Shown: positions 13,046 to 20,668 of the stretch, one piece after another
Layout of the letters: each line of letters opens with the position of its first letter
Numbering within the stretch: position 1 is the stretch's first letter
Source: Phycisphaeraceae bacterium
GTDB taxonomy: Bacteria; Planctomycetota; Phycisphaerae; Phycisphaerales; Phycisphaeraceae
Assembly (NCBI GenBank): GCA_029260715.1
Contig: JAJDCS010000014.1
Location: 124,001-188,000 of the forward strand
DNA length: 64,000 nucleotides
Direction of reading: 5' to 3'
Made by a program: the position numbers and the translations under genes
The notes under the pieces: generated by a model
Databases searched by the model: none
Told to the model about the DNA's origin: nothing
What the model saw: only the letters and a program-made list of their open reading frames with translations

Positions 13046-14692
13046 TCAAGGGCTTGGATCAACGCCCGATTCGATCAGGTGGTACGCCAGCGCGTCGGTG
13101 ATCGCTTCCCAGGAGGCGTCGACGATGTTCTCGTTGACGCCCACGGTGGCGAAGTGATTGGTGGGTGCGTTCGTGGCGGGAGCGGGGTCATTGCTGGGCG
13201 GGTGGGGCTGTACGGCGAACTGGGAGACCACGCGGACCTTGGCCGCCGACTCGGCTGTAGGGTTCACGACGCGCACGTTGTAGTCGTATAGGTGTACGTC
13301 TGCGAGTTGGGGGTAGGTTTCCTTGAGGCACTTGCGTAGCGCCGCGTCGAGCGCGTTGACGGGCCCGTCGCCTTCGGCCACGCGGTGCTCGGTGTGCCCG
13401 TCCACGTGCAATTTGACCGTGGCTTCGGTCACGGGGGGCTGGTCATCTCGCTTGAGGATTACGCACCGGTAGTGGTCCAGCCGCCAGAAGCGGGGGCGGG
13501 TGCCCTGCAGTTGGTGTAGCAGCAACTCGAAGCTGGCTGTGGCGGCTTCGAATTGATACCCCTGGTGCTCCAACTCTTGGATACGCTCCAGCAGTTTCCG
13601 CTGGAGGTCTTTGTTGTCCATGATGTCGAATTTTTTACCGATGGTGGCGGCGATGTTGCTGGCGCCGCTTAGCTCGCTGACCAGCACACGCCGCTCGTTG
13701 CCCACGCGCTGTGGGTCGATGTGCTCATAGCTGCGCGCGGACCGCTGCACGGCGTGGACGTGCATACCGCCTTTGTGCGCGAAAGCGGCCGACCCGACGA
13801 ACGGCTGGTTGGGGATCAGGTTGAGGTTGCCCGTGGCGTAGACGAATCGGCTGGCCTCGGTCAGGCGCCCCAGTGAGTCGCCTTGGAGGCAGTCGTAGCT
13901 CATTTTTAGGCGCAGGTTGGCGGCGATGGTGGTCAGGTCCGCGTTGCCGCAGCGCTCGCCGATGCCGTTGATCGTGCCCTGGGCTTGGATGCAGCCCGCC
14001 TCGATCGCCGCCAGTGTGTTGGCCACGGCCAGGCCGCAGTCGTTGTGGGTGTGGATGCCCAGCTTGCCTTTGGCTTGGTCGCCGAGTTCGGCAGTGATTC
14101 GGTTGACCGCTTGGGTGACCCATGCCGGGAGCGACCCGCCGTTGGTGTCGCACAGCACAAGCCTGGCTGCGCCGCCTTCCAACGCCGCTTGGAGCGTTTG
14201 CAGGGCGTACTGGGGGTTGTCCTGGTAGCCGTCGAAAAAATGCTCGGCGTCGTAAAAGACCTCGTGCCCCGCGTCGCGGCAGAAGGCCACCGATTGGCGG
14301 ATCATGTCCAGGTTTTCTTCGCGGCTGACGCACAGCACGCCGTCCACGTGCAGGTCCCACGACTTGCCGACGATGGTGATCACCGGTGTCTGAGCGCCGA
14401 TCAGCGCGCGCATGCCGGGGTCTTGCGGGGGGGGGGTCCCCTTGCGGCGGGTCATGCCGAATGCGCACAGGCGAGCGTGTTTGAGGTTTAGTTTGGCTGC
14501 CTCGGCGAAGAACGCCTGGTCTTTGGGGTTGGACAGGGGGTACCCGCCTTCGATGAAGTCAACGCCCAGGGCGTCTAGCCGCTGGGCGATGGCGATTTTG
14601 TCTTTCAGGCTAAACGCCACGCCCTGGCCCTGCGTGCCGTCGCGCAGCGTGGTGTCGTAGATTTCGATGCGTTTGGGGGCTGGTTCGGTCAT
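13046..14692 (-). CDS. cimA: (R)-citramalate synthase
   Basis: Product of 548 residues. The catalytic TIM barrel opens with IEIYDTTLRDGTQGQGVAFS and then FIEGGYPLSNPKDQAFF, a signature that separates citramalate synthase from isopropylmalate synthase; HTHNDCGLAVANTLAAIEAG carries the metal-binding His pair and NGIGERCGNADL follows. The C-terminal regulatory LeuA-dimer domain starts near residue 400. It condenses pyruvate with acetyl-CoA as the first step of threonine-independent isoleucine synthesis. ATG 14692 is chosen over GTG 14722 because homology begins there; neither has a Shine-Dalgarno. A leader peptide, competing hairpins and a terminator sit upstream, so expression is probably set by isoleucine supply. 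Confidence 0.92.
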   Translation of the reverse strand: MTEPAPKRIEIYDTTLRDGTQGQGVAFSLKDKIAIAQRLDALGVDFIEGGYPLSNPKDQAFFAEAAKLNLKHARLCAFGMTRRKGTPPPQDPGMRALIGAQTPVITIVGKSWDLHVDGVLCVSREENLDMIRQSVAFCRDAGHEVFYDAEHFFDGYQDNPQYALQTLQAALEGGAARLVLCDTNGGSLPAWVTQAVNRITAELGDQAKGKLGIHTHNDCGLAVANTLAAIEAGCIQAQGTINGIGERCGNADLTTIAANLRLKMSYDCLQGDSLGRLTEASRFVYATGNLNLIPNQPFVGSAAFAHKGGMHVHAVQRSARSYEHIDPQRVGNERRVLVSELSGASNIAATIGKKFDIMDNKDLQRKLLERIQELEHQGYQFEAATASFELLLHQLQGTRPRFWRLDHYRCVILKRDDQPPVTEATVKLHVDGHTEHRVAEGDGPVNALDAALRKCLKETYPQLADVHLYDYNVRVVNPTAESAAKVRVVSQFAVQPHPPSNDPAPATNAPTNHFATVGVNENIVDASWEAITDALAYHLIESGVDPSP

Positions 14693-14762: not shown

Positions 14763-14792
14763 TAAAAACAAAACCCTGCCAAGCGGCAGGGT
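14763..14792 (-). terminator. Intrinsic terminator (attenuator) upstream of cimA
   Basis: On the minus strand, ACCCTGCC-GCTT-GGCAGGGT forms a perfect 8 bp stem with a 4 nt loop, followed directly by TTTGTTTTTAT. It lies about 70 nt before the cimA start and 31 nt after the leader-peptide stop, so it can only stop transcripts begun further upstream, as an attenuator would. Confidence 0.88.
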
Positions 14793-14841
14793 CTGGGTCC
14801 GTAATGACGCACCAACAGAAGCCCTACCGCCTTGCAAGCGG
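14764..14841 (-). promoter_or_regulatory. Isoleucine attenuator: competing hairpins upstream of cimA
   Basis: Four segments can be assigned on the minus strand. Segment 1 is CCGCTT (14841-14836); segment 2 is AGGCGGTAGGG (14832-14822), which includes the leader stop codon; segment 3 is CCCTGCCGCTT (14791-14781); segment 4 is GGCAGGGT (14780-14773). Segments 2 and 3 pair over 11 consecutive positions (nine Watson-Crick, two G-U), which would block the 3-4 terminator; segments 1 and 2 pair over 6 positions. A ribosome that reaches the stop codon covers segment 2 and frees the terminator; one stalled at Ile codons leaves 2-3 free to pair. This is the classic attenuation layout. Confidence 0.82.
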
Positions 14842-14901
14842 TGTGGGGATCGTTTGCCGGGCAATAATAATGGCGAAGATGGTTCGGCGGAGTTCAGCCA
14901 T
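14824..14901 (-). CDS. Isoleucine-rich leader peptide of the cimA attenuator
   Basis: A 25-codon frame from ATG 14901 to TAG 14824. It contains the run TIFAIIIARQTIP: five of 25 residues are isoleucine, three of them consecutive ATT codons, with no valine and two leucines. There is no Shine-Dalgarno; a consensus TATAAT ends 7 nt upstream, so the message would begin at or next to the ATG. The stop codon overlaps the antiterminator segment, as expected for a translated attenuator. The frame stays open further upstream, but that part would lie before the promoter. Confidence 0.8.
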   Translation of the reverse strand: MAELRRTIFAIIIARQTIPTPLARR

Positions 14902-14908
14902 GGCCACA

Positions 14909-14914
14909 ATTATA
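14909..14914 (-). promoter_or_regulatory. -10 box of the cimA leader promoter
   Basis: Perfect TATAAT on the minus strand, 7 nt before the leader-peptide ATG. The -35 region at the usual distance is weak (TGCAAC with an 18 nt spacer). Placement predicts a leaderless leader-peptide mRNA. Confidence 0.65.
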
Positions 14915-15250: not shown

Positions 15251-18200
15251 ATGCCCGTATCGACCGACACCTTACGCGATCAAAACAAGCTCCATCTTAT
15301 ATTCGCCGTCTCAGCGGTAGTGCTGCTGGTGTCGATGGTGTGGCTGGTGTGGGCGGACTACAGCCGTGTGTGGCGGCATTACCAGCGGGACGCGCGTCAC
15401 TGGGAAACAGCCATGACGGTCGACGCCGGGCAGCGCGCGTTGACCGCCGACGATCAACGCCAACTTAAATCGTTCGAGCAGGAGATTGACACGCTGGCCG
15501 CGGCCTTGCCCCACGAGCGGATCGCCGAATTGGAGGCGAAGCTGGCCGCTACCCAGAGCCACCGCGATCGGCTGACACTGCCCGCGGCCACCGTCAAGGG
15601 CGAGATCGGCCCCAAGACACAGGAACTGGAGCGGGCCCAGCTGGCGGGGTCGGACCAGGTCGGGCGAATCGAAGCAGCATTGGAGCGGCTCAACGAGAAC
15701 TACGGCGCGAAAGAGCGGGAATTGGTCGCGCTGGACATGACGATCGCCGGGTACGAGCAAGAGCTTGTCGATCTGCGGGCCCAGCAAGTTGAAATCAACA
15801 GGCAGATCGCCAACCTCACACGAGCCAAGGACGCCGCGGCTGAGAAATTGACCAAGATCGACCCGCAGGGCCTAGCCAAAGTCAGCGACAGGGTCCGTAA
15901 CGCCCCCTTGCTGGATTGGTTCAACCCGACCGAGAAGGTCCAGCAGGTGGTGGTGCCGTCCGTGCGCATCGATTTGAATTTCTTAACGGTTGAAACGATC
16001 GACCGTTGCACCACCTGCCACGTGAATATCGACAACCCCGCTTATGACGAGGACAACCTGCTGCTGTTCGCCGAGCGCCAGGCTGCTTCTTACGAGGGCC
16101 AAGACGTGGACGCCATCGACCAGCCCGTGGTGCTGCGGAGCTTCTGGGACCGGGCGGCCGAGTTGGCGGGGCTGGGGGCGAAGCTTGAAAAGTTCCGTGC
16201 CCAGGCGTTTGAATCGGTCAACGAGCTGCGCCAAGACGCGGGTATGGGGGCGTTGGAATCGGTCCTAAAGATCAAGCAAGAGCTAGACCGGATCGCCCAG
16301 CACGAGCCGGGCGACGACGGTGTGTCCCGCAAGCGGTGGTACGCGCCGGTGGCTCAATACACGGGCAGGGTCAAGCAACTGCTGCGTGAATCGCTGGGGG
16401 AGGACGAGTTCAAAAAGCTGCGGAGCTTGTACCGTTACGAGTTAGTCGATTACTACAACCGCCACCGCTCGAGTGACAGCCTGCCCACACTCAGCGCCAA
16501 CCCCGTGTTGCTGGCCCACCCGAAGCTGGGCCTATACGCCAATGCCGAATCGTCTCACCCGATGAAGACGATGGGCTGCACGGTCTGCCACGAGGGTTCG
16601 GGTCAGGAGACGGGTTTTGTCCACGCGGCCCACACCCCGCGCGACGCCTGGGTCGATGCCCGCAGCGGCGCGCCCGTGCCACGGTTCTTGATGGATCGCC
16701 ACGGCGACGGCCATGCGGGGATGGTTCAAGCGGCGTACCAGCCTAAGCAAGGGTTTTCTTTGGACGGCGCCACGGTGGCGTATGCGTCGGGTGTGCGCGA
16801 GGGCGATGGTCACGGTCAAGACGGTCACAGCCAAACGGCCCGGTCCACCCACGCCGACGTGAAGCTCACCGACCCGCACAACCCCGCGCCGTTTGCGCCT
16901 TCGCAGGAGACACACGGCCACACGGCTGCGTACAAGAGCGTCGGGCACGAAGCGGGCGAGCTTACGGCTGTGCCGCAGGCTGAATTTTGGGCCGACCGTT
17001 ACGGCTGGCACGCGGTGCACTACATGGAGTGGGAAAAACCCATGCACGCGCTGGATTACGTCGAGTCCAGTTGCAACAAGTGCCACACCGAGGTGTTTGA
17101 TATCGACCAAGCAGCGCCCACGCTGTTCAAGGGGCGGCTGCTATTCTCGCAACTGGGCTGTGTGAACTGCCACGCGGTGGAGTCGTTGAACGACGACCTG
17201 GACATCAAGAAGATCGGCCCGAACCTGGCGCACTTGAAGCACAAGCTTTCCAAGCCTATGGCCGCGTCGTGGATATGGTCGCCCAAGGCGTTCCGGCCGA
17301 CGGCGAAGATGCCCCATTACTTCATGCTTGAAAACAATTCGTCGCCCGTCGACATCCAGCGCACGCGCACGGAAGTCGCAGCGATGACGCACTACCTGTA
17401 CACGTCCAAGCCCGCCAAGACCACCCCCGCGTACAAGCCCGAGCCTCAGCCGGACGGTGTAGAGGGTGACGCCGCCGCGGGCCGCAAGCTTTTCAACAGC
17501 GTGGGCTGCTTGTCGTGTCACACGAATATCTCCGAGCAGGGTCAGAAATGGGCCGCCGACGACATGGTCGCTCGTCAGGGCATGGACCGTGAAAAAGCGG
17601 AGCACGCGTACGAGTCGATGAGCTACAACCAGCAGCGGTGGTACATCACCGAGCACCTGCCGCAGAAGGTTTCGCTGATCGGGCCTGACCTGTCGGACAT
17701 CGGCACCAAGCTCACCGCCGGTCGCGACACCGCCACCGCCCGGGAGGAAGCGGCGGGGTGGCTGTACGACTGGCTGAGCAACCCGCGCCACTATTCCAGC
17801 TACACGATCATGCCCAGCTTCCGCCTGTCGCAGCAGGAGGCGGCCGATATGGCGGCTTACCTGCTGTCGCTGACCCGCCCGGATTACGAGGCTCAGGACT
17901 TCTTGGCCATGGGTGATAGCGACAAGAAGATGCTCGCCGAACTTGTCGCGCAGCTCAAAGCGGCTGGCAGCACCGTTGAGTTGGCCCGCAAGGAAGCGGC
18001 GAGGATGAAACACGACGAGCAGTTGGCGTATTTGGGCAAGAAGATGATCGCCCACTACGGCTGCAACGGGTGTCACCTGATCAATGGGTTTGAGACGGCC
18101 GCGTCGGCGTGCGCGAACCTCGACGATTGGGGCCTGAAGGACCCGCACAAGTTGGATTTTGGATACTTCGACCACGCGTTCGATGCCGACCGGGAGCACC

Positions 18201-20668
18201 CGATTGCGGCGTGGAAGGTTGATCACGAGGGTCTGGAGGCCGACGCGCCGCAGGTAACTTACAGCGACAAAAAAATCCACAACGTCTCGCTGAATTGGGA
18301 GCACATGCCGGCGCTGGACCGCCGCCCCTGGCTGTACCACAAGCTGCACAACCCACGTGTCTACGACCGCGGGCGCACGGCGTTTGAAGGGGCCTTGGAC
18401 CCAAGCCACGGCTTTGACGCGGCGGATTCGGACGTGGGCAAGCCCTACGACAAGCTGAAGATGCCCAAGTTCTTCCTGGCTGACGACCAGGTGCGGGCGT
18501 TGATCACTTTCGTCACCAGCATCCGCAAGCCGCTGGTCGACCCGACCATGCAGCAGTCGGTCATGGGCGAGGCGCGCATGCGTCTGGCACGCGGGCGGCA
18601 GGTCGCCACGTTGTACAACTGTTACGGGTGTCACAACGTTGAGCACAACGAGCCCCGCATCTGGGATTCGTTTGACGTGTACAACCCGGACGGCGGGTTC
18701 AATTATGAAAACCTGAACAACGCTCCGCCGCGGCTGATCGGCCAAGGCGCCAAGACGCAGCCGCAGTGGCTGTACCACTTCTTGCACAACATCGAGCCGC
18801 TGCGTCCGTGGCTGAAGGTGCGTATGCCCAGCTTCCCGTTGGATGCGCCCGACACCACTGCGCTGGTGGATTACTTTGCCGGCGCCAGCCAAGAGATCAC
18901 CCGACGCATGGCCGGGCCCACCGCCGCTGTCGAGCAGGCCATCGAGAACAGGGCCAAGATGTACTTGGAGAGCGTGGACGGCCTGTCCAAGGAAGACGTG
19001 GCGAAGAAGCTGAACAAGATGGCGACGCCACAGCGGGTGGCCTACCTCCAGCAGCACAACAAGCCCTACTACTGGTTCCAAGACCCGGCCTTGGCTCAGG
19101 CGGTTGAGCGGATCAAGGCCTTCGCGATCGAGGTCGATCTTGTCCGGCCCTCCGACCTCGACCCGCTGCACACGCCGCTGTCCGAGCGCGCTACCAAGTG
19201 GGCCAAGGTGCTAGGGGAGACCCGTTTTTCGGAAGCGATCAACGACATCGCATACCCATTTGTGCCGACGCCCGCGTTCCAGGGCGATGCGCAGTGGTTC
19301 GCTCGTGGTGAGAAGCTGTTTAAAGAGCTGCGCTGCTACCAGTGCCACGCTTTGGGTGATGAACAGACCCTCCAATCTCTGTGGGAGTTGGACAACCCCG
19401 CGGAGGAGGCAGACGCCGCCGCCGAGGCAGACGACAGTGAAGAAGAAGACGACTACGGCTACGGCGACGAGGAGGAAGATGATTACGGTTACGGCGATGA
19501 AGAAGAGGCCGAGGCCGCGCCGACGGGCCCTGTCTACACCGCGCCGAACCTGTCGCTGACGGCCAGACGGTTGCAGTGGCAGTGGGTCGATAGCTGGCTC
19601 CAAGAGCCGGCGACGATCCAGCCGGGCACGAAGATGCCCCAGTGGTTCCCGGGCGGACAATCGGCGTTCAACAACTACCCCGGTCAAGCCAAAGACCAGA
19701 TGCACGCGACGTACGGCTACCTTGGCAAAGACCAGCGTAAGCTCTTGCTGGACTTCATGTACGAAGCCGGGCGCACCGGCTATACCCCCGGCGCCGAGCG
19801 GCTGACCGGTGCGGAGTCTGTGGAGGTTGAACTGCCGCCGCTGCCTAAGCCTGAGATGCCCGACGAGGGCGAAGACGGCGAGCCGGGTGAGCAGTCCGCA
19901 GCCGCGACGGACGGTGATGACGGAGGCGCCGCCCAGGCCGCCGCGCCTGTGCCTGTGACGCCGAAAGAAGAGCCCAAGGTCTCTTCGATTACGCTGCACG
20001 ACGCCACTGCGCCTTACGACGGGCAGGGCAAGGGCCGTGTTGTGGGTGTGATTAAGTTTGACGGGAAGCCCCCTCGCCGCAAGCCGATCCGCATGAGCGC
20101 CGACGCCTTCTGCAACAAGGCTCACGATGAGAAAGTGTTCGACCCGTCCACCATTGTGAACGACGACGGCACGGTGCAGAACGCGTTTGTGTACGTCAAG
20201 TCCGGGCTGTCGGGCAGTTTTTCTCCGCCGTCCACGCAGGTGGTGATGGACCAGGTGGGGTGTATGTACCGCCCGCACGTGGTGGGCGTGATGGCTGGAC
20301 AGCCGCTTTTGATCCTCAACAGCGACAACACGCTGCACAACGTGAAGATGAATAGCTCCAGCAACGGCTCGTTCAATGAGGGCATGCCGGTGCAAGGCAT
20401 GCAGATCCAAAAAACGCTGTCGAAGCAGGAAATGGGCATCTCATTCAAGTGCGACGTGCACCCGTGGATGGGGGCGTTGTTGTATGTGACGGATCACCCA
20501 TTCTTCGGCGTCAGCGACGTGGAGGGGCGGTTCGAGATCAAGGGCCTACCGCCGGGCACATACACCCTGGAGGTTGTCCACGAAAACAAGAAGATCGCGC
20601 CGGTGACGTTTGATGTAACCGTTCAAGCGGACACGTCTCACCGCGAGGACGCGACCCTAAACGAGTAG
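15251..20668 (+). CDS. Giant membrane-anchored octahaem c-type cytochrome with C-terminal cupredoxin-like domain
   Basis: Product of 1805 residues. One N-terminal membrane helix (~17-36) anchors it outside the cytoplasm; residues ~60-215 are coiled coil. Eight CxxCH haem c sites follow, starting at residues 253, 443, 608, 637, 753, 938, 1124 and 1362. Several are in typical cytochrome c folds with distal Met loops such as KMPHYF, IMPSF, KMPKFF, RMPSF and KMPQWF. Acidic DDYGYGDEEE repeats (~1395-1425) and a Pro/Ala/Asp linker lead to a C-terminal domain (~1590-1805) with NTLHNVK (His1696) and CDVHPWM (Cys1734, His1737, Met1740), the ligand set of a type 1 copper site. The gene opens the cytochrome oxidase operon, so it probably delivers electrons to subunit II, possibly from a bc1 or alternative complex III. 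No Shine-Dalgarno is seen before ATG 15251. Confidence 0.85.
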   Translation: MPVSTDTLRDQNKLHLIFAVSAVVLLVSMVWLVWADYSRVWRHYQRDARHWETAMTVDAGQRALTADDQRQLKSFEQEIDTLAAALPHERIAELEAKLAATQSHRDRLTLPAATVKGEIGPKTQELERAQLAGSDQVGRIEAALERLNENYGAKERELVALDMTIAGYEQELVDLRAQQVEINRQIANLTRAKDAAAEKLTKIDPQGLAKVSDRVRNAPLLDWFNPTEKVQQVVVPSVRIDLNFLTVETIDRCTTCHVNIDNPAYDEDNLLLFAERQAASYEGQDVDAIDQPVVLRSFWDRAAELAGLGAKLEKFRAQAFESVNELRQDAGMGALESVLKIKQELDRIAQHEPGDDGVSRKRWYAPVAQYTGRVKQLLRESLGEDEFKKLRSLYRYELVDYYNRHRSSDSLPTLSANPVLLAHPKLGLYANAESSHPMKTMGCTVCHEGSGQETGFVHAAHTPRDAWVDARSGAPVPRFLMDRHGDGHAGMVQAAYQPKQGFSLDGATVAYASGVREGDGHGQDGHSQTARSTHADVKLTDPHNPAPFAPSQETHGHTAAYKSVGHEAGELTAVPQAEFWADRYGWHAVHYMEWEKPMHALDYVESSCNKCHTEVFDIDQAAPTLFKGRLLFSQLGCVNCHAVESLNDDLDIKKIGPNLAHLKHKLSKPMAASWIWSPKAFRPTAKMPHYFMLENNSSPVDIQRTRTEVAAMTHYLYTSKPAKTTPAYKPEPQPDGVEGDAAAGRKLFNSVGCLSCHTNISEQGQKWAADDMVARQGMDREKAEHAYESMSYNQQRWYITEHLPQKVSLIGPDLSDIGTKLTAGRDTATAREEAAGWLYDWLSNPRHYSSYTIMPSFRLSQQEAADMAAYLLSLTRPDYEAQDFLAMGDSDKKMLAELVAQLKAAGSTVELARKEAARMKHDEQLAYLGKKMIAHYGCNGCHLINGFETAASACANLDDWGLKDPHKLDFGYFDHAFDADREHPIAAWKVDHEGLEADAPQVTYSDKKIHNVSLNWEHMPALDRRPWLYHKLHNPRVYDRGRTAFEGALDPSHGFDAADSDVGKPYDKLKMPKFFLADDQVRALITFVTSIRKPLVDPTMQQSVMGEARMRLARGRQVATLYNCYGCHNVEHNEPRIWDSFDVYNPDGGFNYENLNNAPPRLIGQGAKTQPQWLYHFLHNIEPLRPWLKVRMPSFPLDAPDTTALVDYFAGASQEITRRMAGPTAAVEQAIENRAKMYLESVDGLSKEDVAKKLNKMATPQRVAYLQQHNKPYYWFQDPALAQAVERIKAFAIEVDLVRPSDLDPLHTPLSERATKWAKVLGETRFSEAINDIAYPFVPTPAFQGDAQWFARGEKLFKELRCYQCHALGDEQTLQSLWELDNPAEEADAAAEADDSEEEDDYGYGDEEEDDYGYGDEEEAEAAPTGPVYTAPNLSLTARRLQWQWVDSWLQEPATIQPGTKMPQWFPGGQSAFNNYPGQAKDQMHATYGYLGKDQRKLLLDFMYEAGRTGYTPGAERLTGAESVEVELPPLPKPEMPDEGEDGEPGEQSAAATDGDDGGAAQAAAPVPVTPKEEPKVSSITLHDATAPYDGQGKGRVVGVIKFDGKPPRRKPIRMSADAFCNKAHDEKVFDPSTIVNDDGTVQNAFVYVKSGLSGSFSPPSTQVVMDQVGCMYRPHVVGVMAGQPLLILNSDNTLHNVKMNSSSNGSFNEGMPVQGMQIQKTLSKQEMGISFKCDVHPWMGALLYVTDHPFFGVSDVEGRFEIKGLPPGTYTLEVVHENKKIAPVTFDVTVQADTSHREDATLNE

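Follow-up and report, generated by a model that had tools for sequence, protein, structure and literature searches.

A candidate isoleucine-codon attenuator upstream of cimA in Phycisphaerales and a related cassette ahead of ileS, leuA and aspS in Planctomycetota

Upstream of cimA in a Phycisphaeraceae genome (3.32 Mb, 44 contigs) a short isoleucine-rich reading frame is followed by segments that can pair in two ways, which raises the question of whether these parts together constitute a transcription attenuator. The window, i.e. the whole stretch of DNA that was analysed, covers 64,000 nucleotides; all coordinates refer to it and the element lies on its minus strand (folding of the plus strand was uninformative). 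Relatives used for comparison were Phycisphaeraceae and other Planctomycetota. The regulated gene (13046..14692, minus strand, ATG at 14692) encodes a protein of 548 amino acids and is indeed a citramalate synthase gene, as the original prediction had it, scoring 622 bits against TIGR00977 (E 5e-187, curated cut-off 450). The neighbour upstream of cimA (15251-20668, plus strand) is divergent, and the terminator described below therefore does not end an upstream gene. This adjoining 1805-residue frame carries many CxxCH motifs and is multi-haem cytochrome-like.

The predicted leader is present ahead of cimA (14824..14901, minus strand, with TAG as stop codon; MAELRRTIFAIIIARQTIPTPLARR). It comprises 25 codons, five of them for Ile and three of these consecutive, and most cimA regions of Phycisphaerales contain a comparable Ile-rich frame. 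The Ile codons occupy positions 8, 11-13 and 18; the AUU-AUU-AUU run (codons 11-13, 14863..14871) represents the putative control codons and the remaining two are AUC (14878-14880 and 14848-14850). The last base of a -10 promoter element, TATAAT (14909..14914), is positioned 7 nt ahead of the leader ATG (14901), with the same spacing in relatives. The two exclusive pairings that had been proposed are likewise borne out by the sequence. Segment 2, AGGCGGUAGGG (14822..14832), includes the leader stop codon UAG within a nearly invariant GGUAGGG and, as the 5' strand of the antiterminator, can pair over 11 positions, across the stop codon, with segment 3, CCCUGCCGCUU (14781..14791). The segment 3 strand doubles as the 5' arm of an intrinsic terminator (14764..14792), in which an 8-bp stem ACCCUGCC/GGCAGGGU with the loop GCUU (14792-14773) is followed by the U tract UUUGUUUUU. 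Segment 1, CCCCACACCGC (14838..14848), could base-pair with segment 2 in the absence of translation (predicted 1:2 hairpin of -12.0 kcal/mol) and is the weakest-supported of all parts.

Thus, a short frame with clustered codons for the end product (5/25 Ile including an III run, its translation being putative) and an intrinsic terminator between this frame and the first gene are both present, and covariation together with the ribosome occupancy model (moderate for the sequence in the window) points to a terminator-excluding antiterminator that would be exposed on stalling. On comparative and modelling grounds we are confident that the element is a ribosome-mediated transcription attenuator tying cimA expression to charged tRNA-Ile. 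Transcription would begin at the leader AUG or beside it, yielding a leaderless RNA on which the ribosome would initiate. With isoleucine scarce, the ribosome would wait at codons 11-13, the AUU run, and the stop-codon strand, being unoccupied, could pair with the terminator's 5' arm; the antiterminator would then form and RNA polymerase would continue into cimA. With isoleucine plentiful, the ribosome would reach the UAG inside the antiterminator strand and cover that strand, such that the terminator would form and transcription would end before cimA. For cimA we infer transcription start, stalling, termination and isoleucine response from these sequence and folding data. No threonine deaminase of TIGR01127, the one family searched, was found over the cut-off in this genome (best 65 bits, cut-off 379); cimA consequently appears to provide the sole known route into isoleucine synthesis, and control by isoleucine codons alone fits such a position.

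When the 350-base region was shuffled with dinucleotide composition preserved, an Ile-rich frame (at least four Ile in eight codons) with a terminator at most 70 nt from its stop codon appeared in one of 3000 shuffles. The 2:3 pairing by itself is moderately unusual (reached in 6/200 shuffles), and among the 37 loci the corresponding single-sequence tests are also only moderate (mean z -2.7; 18/37 loci at no more than 2/200), for which reason we used covariation between species. The decisive evidence for the arrangement comes from sequence conservation across relatives.

We compared 45 cimA regions of Phycisphaerales, drawn from the same family and a sister family, and 33 contain an Ile-rich leader together with a terminator, against a shuffle expectation of 0.000; relaxed or manual calls raise the count to 37 (examples of leaders are MQPNGTIIIAIISNPPLR, MSHAAAIIIGIAIQTSHR, MNTRIIGIIIIDEHPCW and MTTANASIIAIAIIITYPM). 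The Ile codons and the pairing thus recur across the order, in answer to the check in relatives that the original prediction had proposed. Outside the Ile cluster the leader peptides are not evidently conserved, which suggests that the frame acts in regulation and does not encode a functional peptide. Roughly one relative in five lacks the cimA attenuator, and L004 and L006, which are among the three nearest, belong to this group. In L004 (G032:C34) the TATAAT and ATG are retained ahead of cimA and the Ile codons and terminator are gone, so that it appears to be a decayed attenuator; an intact one (L300) precedes leuA in this genome.

GGUAGGG or a variant is found at the stop codon in nearly every locus, its complement CCCUGCC, in the 5' arm of the terminator, follows at a distance of about 27-43 nt, and the arms change jointly: UGUAGGGC occurs with GCCCUACC and GGUAGGG in L029 and L031, UGGGGCUGG with CCAGCCCCGC in L028, and CGCCUUAGGGC with GCCCUGAGGCG in L045. 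In permutation tests, which ignore shared ancestry, cognate 2:3 duplexes were stronger than non-cognate ones, with 0/5000 permutations for Phycisphaerales cimA (n=37), for leuA (n=28) and for cimA of other Planctomycetota (n=23). For ileS (n=16) the result was not significant (1748/5000), the sequences being too alike to tell. In several other families of Planctomycetota the stop codon is UGA; there it lies within CUGAGG, or a sequence close to it, that pairs with CCUCAGG (L329, L340 and L345, and similarly L332). The constant of the design is a stop codon embedded in the antiterminator, and the stop codon itself differs between families. Conservation and covariation also speak for the proposed match to the logic of classic amino-acid attenuators. 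Gemmata-type cimA leaders (L050, L053, L055 and L063) share an AQGVR stretch, GCGCAGGGAGTGCGC, beside their Ile/Val clusters, and this stretch is a possible extra hairpin or pause element.

That the leader is apparently leaderless, another part of the original prediction, is supported comparatively. A -10-like hexamer ends 6-10 nt ahead of the start codon in 29/37 cimA leaders vs 44/568 other ATGs in like regions (window 4-10 nt), which makes a transcription start at the leader AUG or very near it probable. Shine-Dalgarno-like sequences are present in seven of the 37 leaders, mostly where the -10 element is further away. A scan of the region with the sigma-70 consensus reported no promoter, probably owing to a weak -35 element.

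To model ribosome occupancy we used a simple thermodynamic scheme, in which only the RNA left free by the ribosome footprint is folded. With the ribosome at the control codons of the cimA leaders the median modelled probability of the terminator, P(terminator), was 0.06, and with the ribosome at the stop codon it was 1.00, exceeding 0.9 in 37/37. The sequence in the window gave 0.46 as free RNA, 0.26 when stalled and 0.99 at the stop codon, i.e. the predicted switch has the right direction and a moderate amplitude. Among the loci P(terminator) of the free RNA ranges from 0 to 1, and in L008, L021, L023, L030 and L044 the modelled terminator persists even when the ribosome is stalled.

Isoleucine makes up 27% of the residues in cimA leaders, compared with 3.2% in two genes of the window, and for leuA leaders the corresponding figures for Leu are 28% vs 8.5%. 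Moreover, AUU accounts for 58% of the Ile codons in the leaders vs 8% in cimA of the same loci, and its fraction is higher in the leader than in the locus's own cimA at 37/37 loci. This preference may stem from slower or more charge-sensitive decoding, or from keeping the control region weakly paired; its strength is a testable prediction on how such sensors are tuned.

The same cassette occurs at other genes, a point absent from the original prediction. A search of 61 genomes with the exact stop-codon/terminator pattern gave 27 matches in 22 genomes, and the reversed pattern gave 0 matches in the same genomes. Besides cimA, the matches lie ahead of ileS, with Ile leaders such as MANALRPDPRIIIGIPNLR and MNPLRPIAAIIITVPQPR, and, in one case, ahead of aspS, where the leader is rich in Asn (...GGNGHNNPSPSR). 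We identified ileS and aspS by conserved protein motifs and not by family scan. A covariance model of the stop-codon/terminator part extended the set to further ileS loci (L213-L219), to another aspS (MLTAPTNANRQDHTPQGR) and to leuA, which has Leu leaders (MKTSGTIRLRNDLLLELLGLGLLRVG). The leader codons follow the amino acid of the gene (Ile for cimA and ileS, Leu for leuA, Asn/Asp for aspS), with the switch part nearly constant. The two aspS cassettes (L134 in G021:C4 and L224 in G006:C21) carry Asn/Asp codons (GGNGHNNPSPSR; TNANRQDH). This would suit an AspRS of the non-discriminating kind, which forms Asp-tRNA-Asn as well.

For leuA, a Leu leader plus terminator was present in 28/30 regions at a looser cut-off (three Leu in eight codons), usually with the GGAUAGG/CCCUGUCC version of the core. 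The leuA leader in the genome of the window (L281, MKTTFGTTRLTSLRALLLQGLLG...) is preceded by the promoter TTGACA/TAGGAT at a distance of 7 nt from the leader ATG. The terminator of this leader was recognised on visual inspection and in folding but missed by the automatic test, and a simple fold keeps it in the stalled state. The ileS region of this genome (L307) has no attenuator. Covariance matches weaker than about E 2e-5 (L222, L223, L225 and L227-L231) appear to be ordinary terminators or, once, a tRNA, and L220 (E 5.5e-6) was likewise grouped with the terminator-like or tRNA-like matches. Leader cases within the same weak range are leuA L221 (1.9e-5) and L232 (3.5e-4) and ileS L226 (7.3e-5). 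Omnitrophota matches with ISTSDISISCII were rejected since they resemble the C-terminal end of a protein encoded upstream and not leaders.

In several Phycisphaerales (L151-L168, e.g. L155, L157, L160 and L163) ilvB is preceded by a Val-rich frame, e.g. ...VAAVVVVVVS and ...VAIIAVVVPVAVS; the one in the genome of the window (L156; G000:C34, upstream of 12069, minus strand) reads ...SLVVVRTVHRGRRG. GCGGAAGACCCGCA often lies just past the stop codon of these frames, and there is no obvious intrinsic terminator. They possibly represent a different, Rho-dependent or translational, attenuator.

How else might the arrangement at cimA be explained? An ordinary gene-end terminator could have come to lie beside a chance Ile-rich frame, with the cimA promoter downstream of the terminator. 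Single parts of this kind do arise by chance, given that 0.9 intrinsic-terminator-like sites are expected in shuffles of the region and that at least five Ile in 24 residues of a short frame has a probability of about 0.0009. The divergent orientation of the upstream neighbour, however, leaves no gene to end, and the recurrence of the whole combination in relatives far above the shuffle expectation, together with a matching layout ahead of ileS and leuA, renders this explanation extremely improbable. Isoleucine or a derivative might instead bind the RNA or a protein, as in a riboswitch or a protein-bound attenuator, the frame being incidental. Although the stop/terminator part is very similar between loci, as an aptamer would be, no Rfam family matched; the conserved part consists only of the two competing strands and the U tract, joined by a linker variable in both length and sequence, and codon content tracks gene function, so we assign almost no weight to this reading.

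A further alternative retains the leader frame as sensor and lets stalling act by Rho access, translational coupling or re-initiation, and not by intrinsic termination. The Val-rich ilvB frames of the same genomes, without an obvious intrinsic terminator, indicate that such a Rho-dependent or translational mechanism may exist in this group, and a leader peptide close to a gene can increase its translation through re-initiation (PMC4833913). At cimA, by contrast, conservation and covariation extend to the intrinsic terminator and the strand competing with it, and the distance from the leader stop codon to cimA varies from about 75 to over 270 nt, which is unsuited to re-initiation; we consider this alternative very unlikely.

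We consider ribosome-mediated intrinsic attenuation the preferred reading at cimA, and taking the other genes into account it seems reasonably likely that we are dealing with an undescribed attenuation regulon of Planctomycetota, in which one compact, probably leaderless cassette built around the stop codon stands ahead of cimA, ileS, leuA and aspS with matched codons (Ile, Ile, Leu and Asn/Asp, respectively) and takes the role that the T-box has in Gram-positive bacteria. In a phylum where regulation by RNA has received little study, attenuation would be a recurrent means of controlling branched-chain amino-acid and tRNA-charging genes, with two targets, citramalate synthase and IleRS, for which we found no description of an attenuator. 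A shared cassette with exchangeable sensor codons would make the evolution of attenuators traceable by sequence, and an attenuator of this type implies coupling of transcription and translation in these bacteria.

Ribosome-mediated attenuation has been described mainly in Proteobacteria and Actinobacteria. In the classic enterobacterial attenuators (his, leu, ilvGMEDA and thr) a leader frame rich in regulatory codons precedes a biosynthetic gene, together with an antiterminator and a U-tract terminator that exclude each other. The cimA element shares the codon-rich leader and the exclusive structures and differs in that its antiterminator is centred on the stop codon, its leader is probably leaderless, the targets include cimA and ileS, and the phylum is Planctomycetota. 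A T-box, unlike the cimA element, works without a leader frame and binds uncharged tRNA itself. An Rfam scan of the window region and 14 related loci gave no match above the gathering threshold of any family, including His_leader, Leu_leader, Thr_leader and Trp_leader, and no T-box covariance match. The likeness to T-boxes lies in function: these elements control ileS in Gram-positive bacteria (PMC1262725) as well as ilv/leu genes, so that tRNA charging governs an aminoacyl-tRNA synthetase and branched-chain genes. The ilvB leaders of Corynebacterium (ilvB-II/ilvBNC) resemble the present element in having a uORF with Ile/Leu/Val codons, a terminator (P2) and a competing antiterminator (PMC1262725, PMC10272879, PMC11109978); here the gene is cimA, the codons in Phycisphaerales are Ile only and the sequence is another, and no sharing of the Corynebacterium cassette with leuA and ileS has been reported. 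A leaderless attenuator leader is already known from Sinorhizobium meliloti trpL, whose transcript begins at the AUG of the leader frame (PMC7298713), as is probable here, but it has Trp codons, serves the trp operon and belongs to Alphaproteobacteria. The original prediction regarded a leaderless leader with citramalate synthase as target as an apparently undescribed combination, and in the open-access literature we found neither a paper on cimA with a leader-peptide attenuator nor a description of planctomycete attenuators, which the RNA-discovery papers examined do not mention; we provisionally regard a cimA attenuator in Planctomycetota as novel. The mechanism belongs to a known class, and what is provisionally new is the taxon, the targets, the stop-codon-centred antiterminator and the sharing of one cassette.
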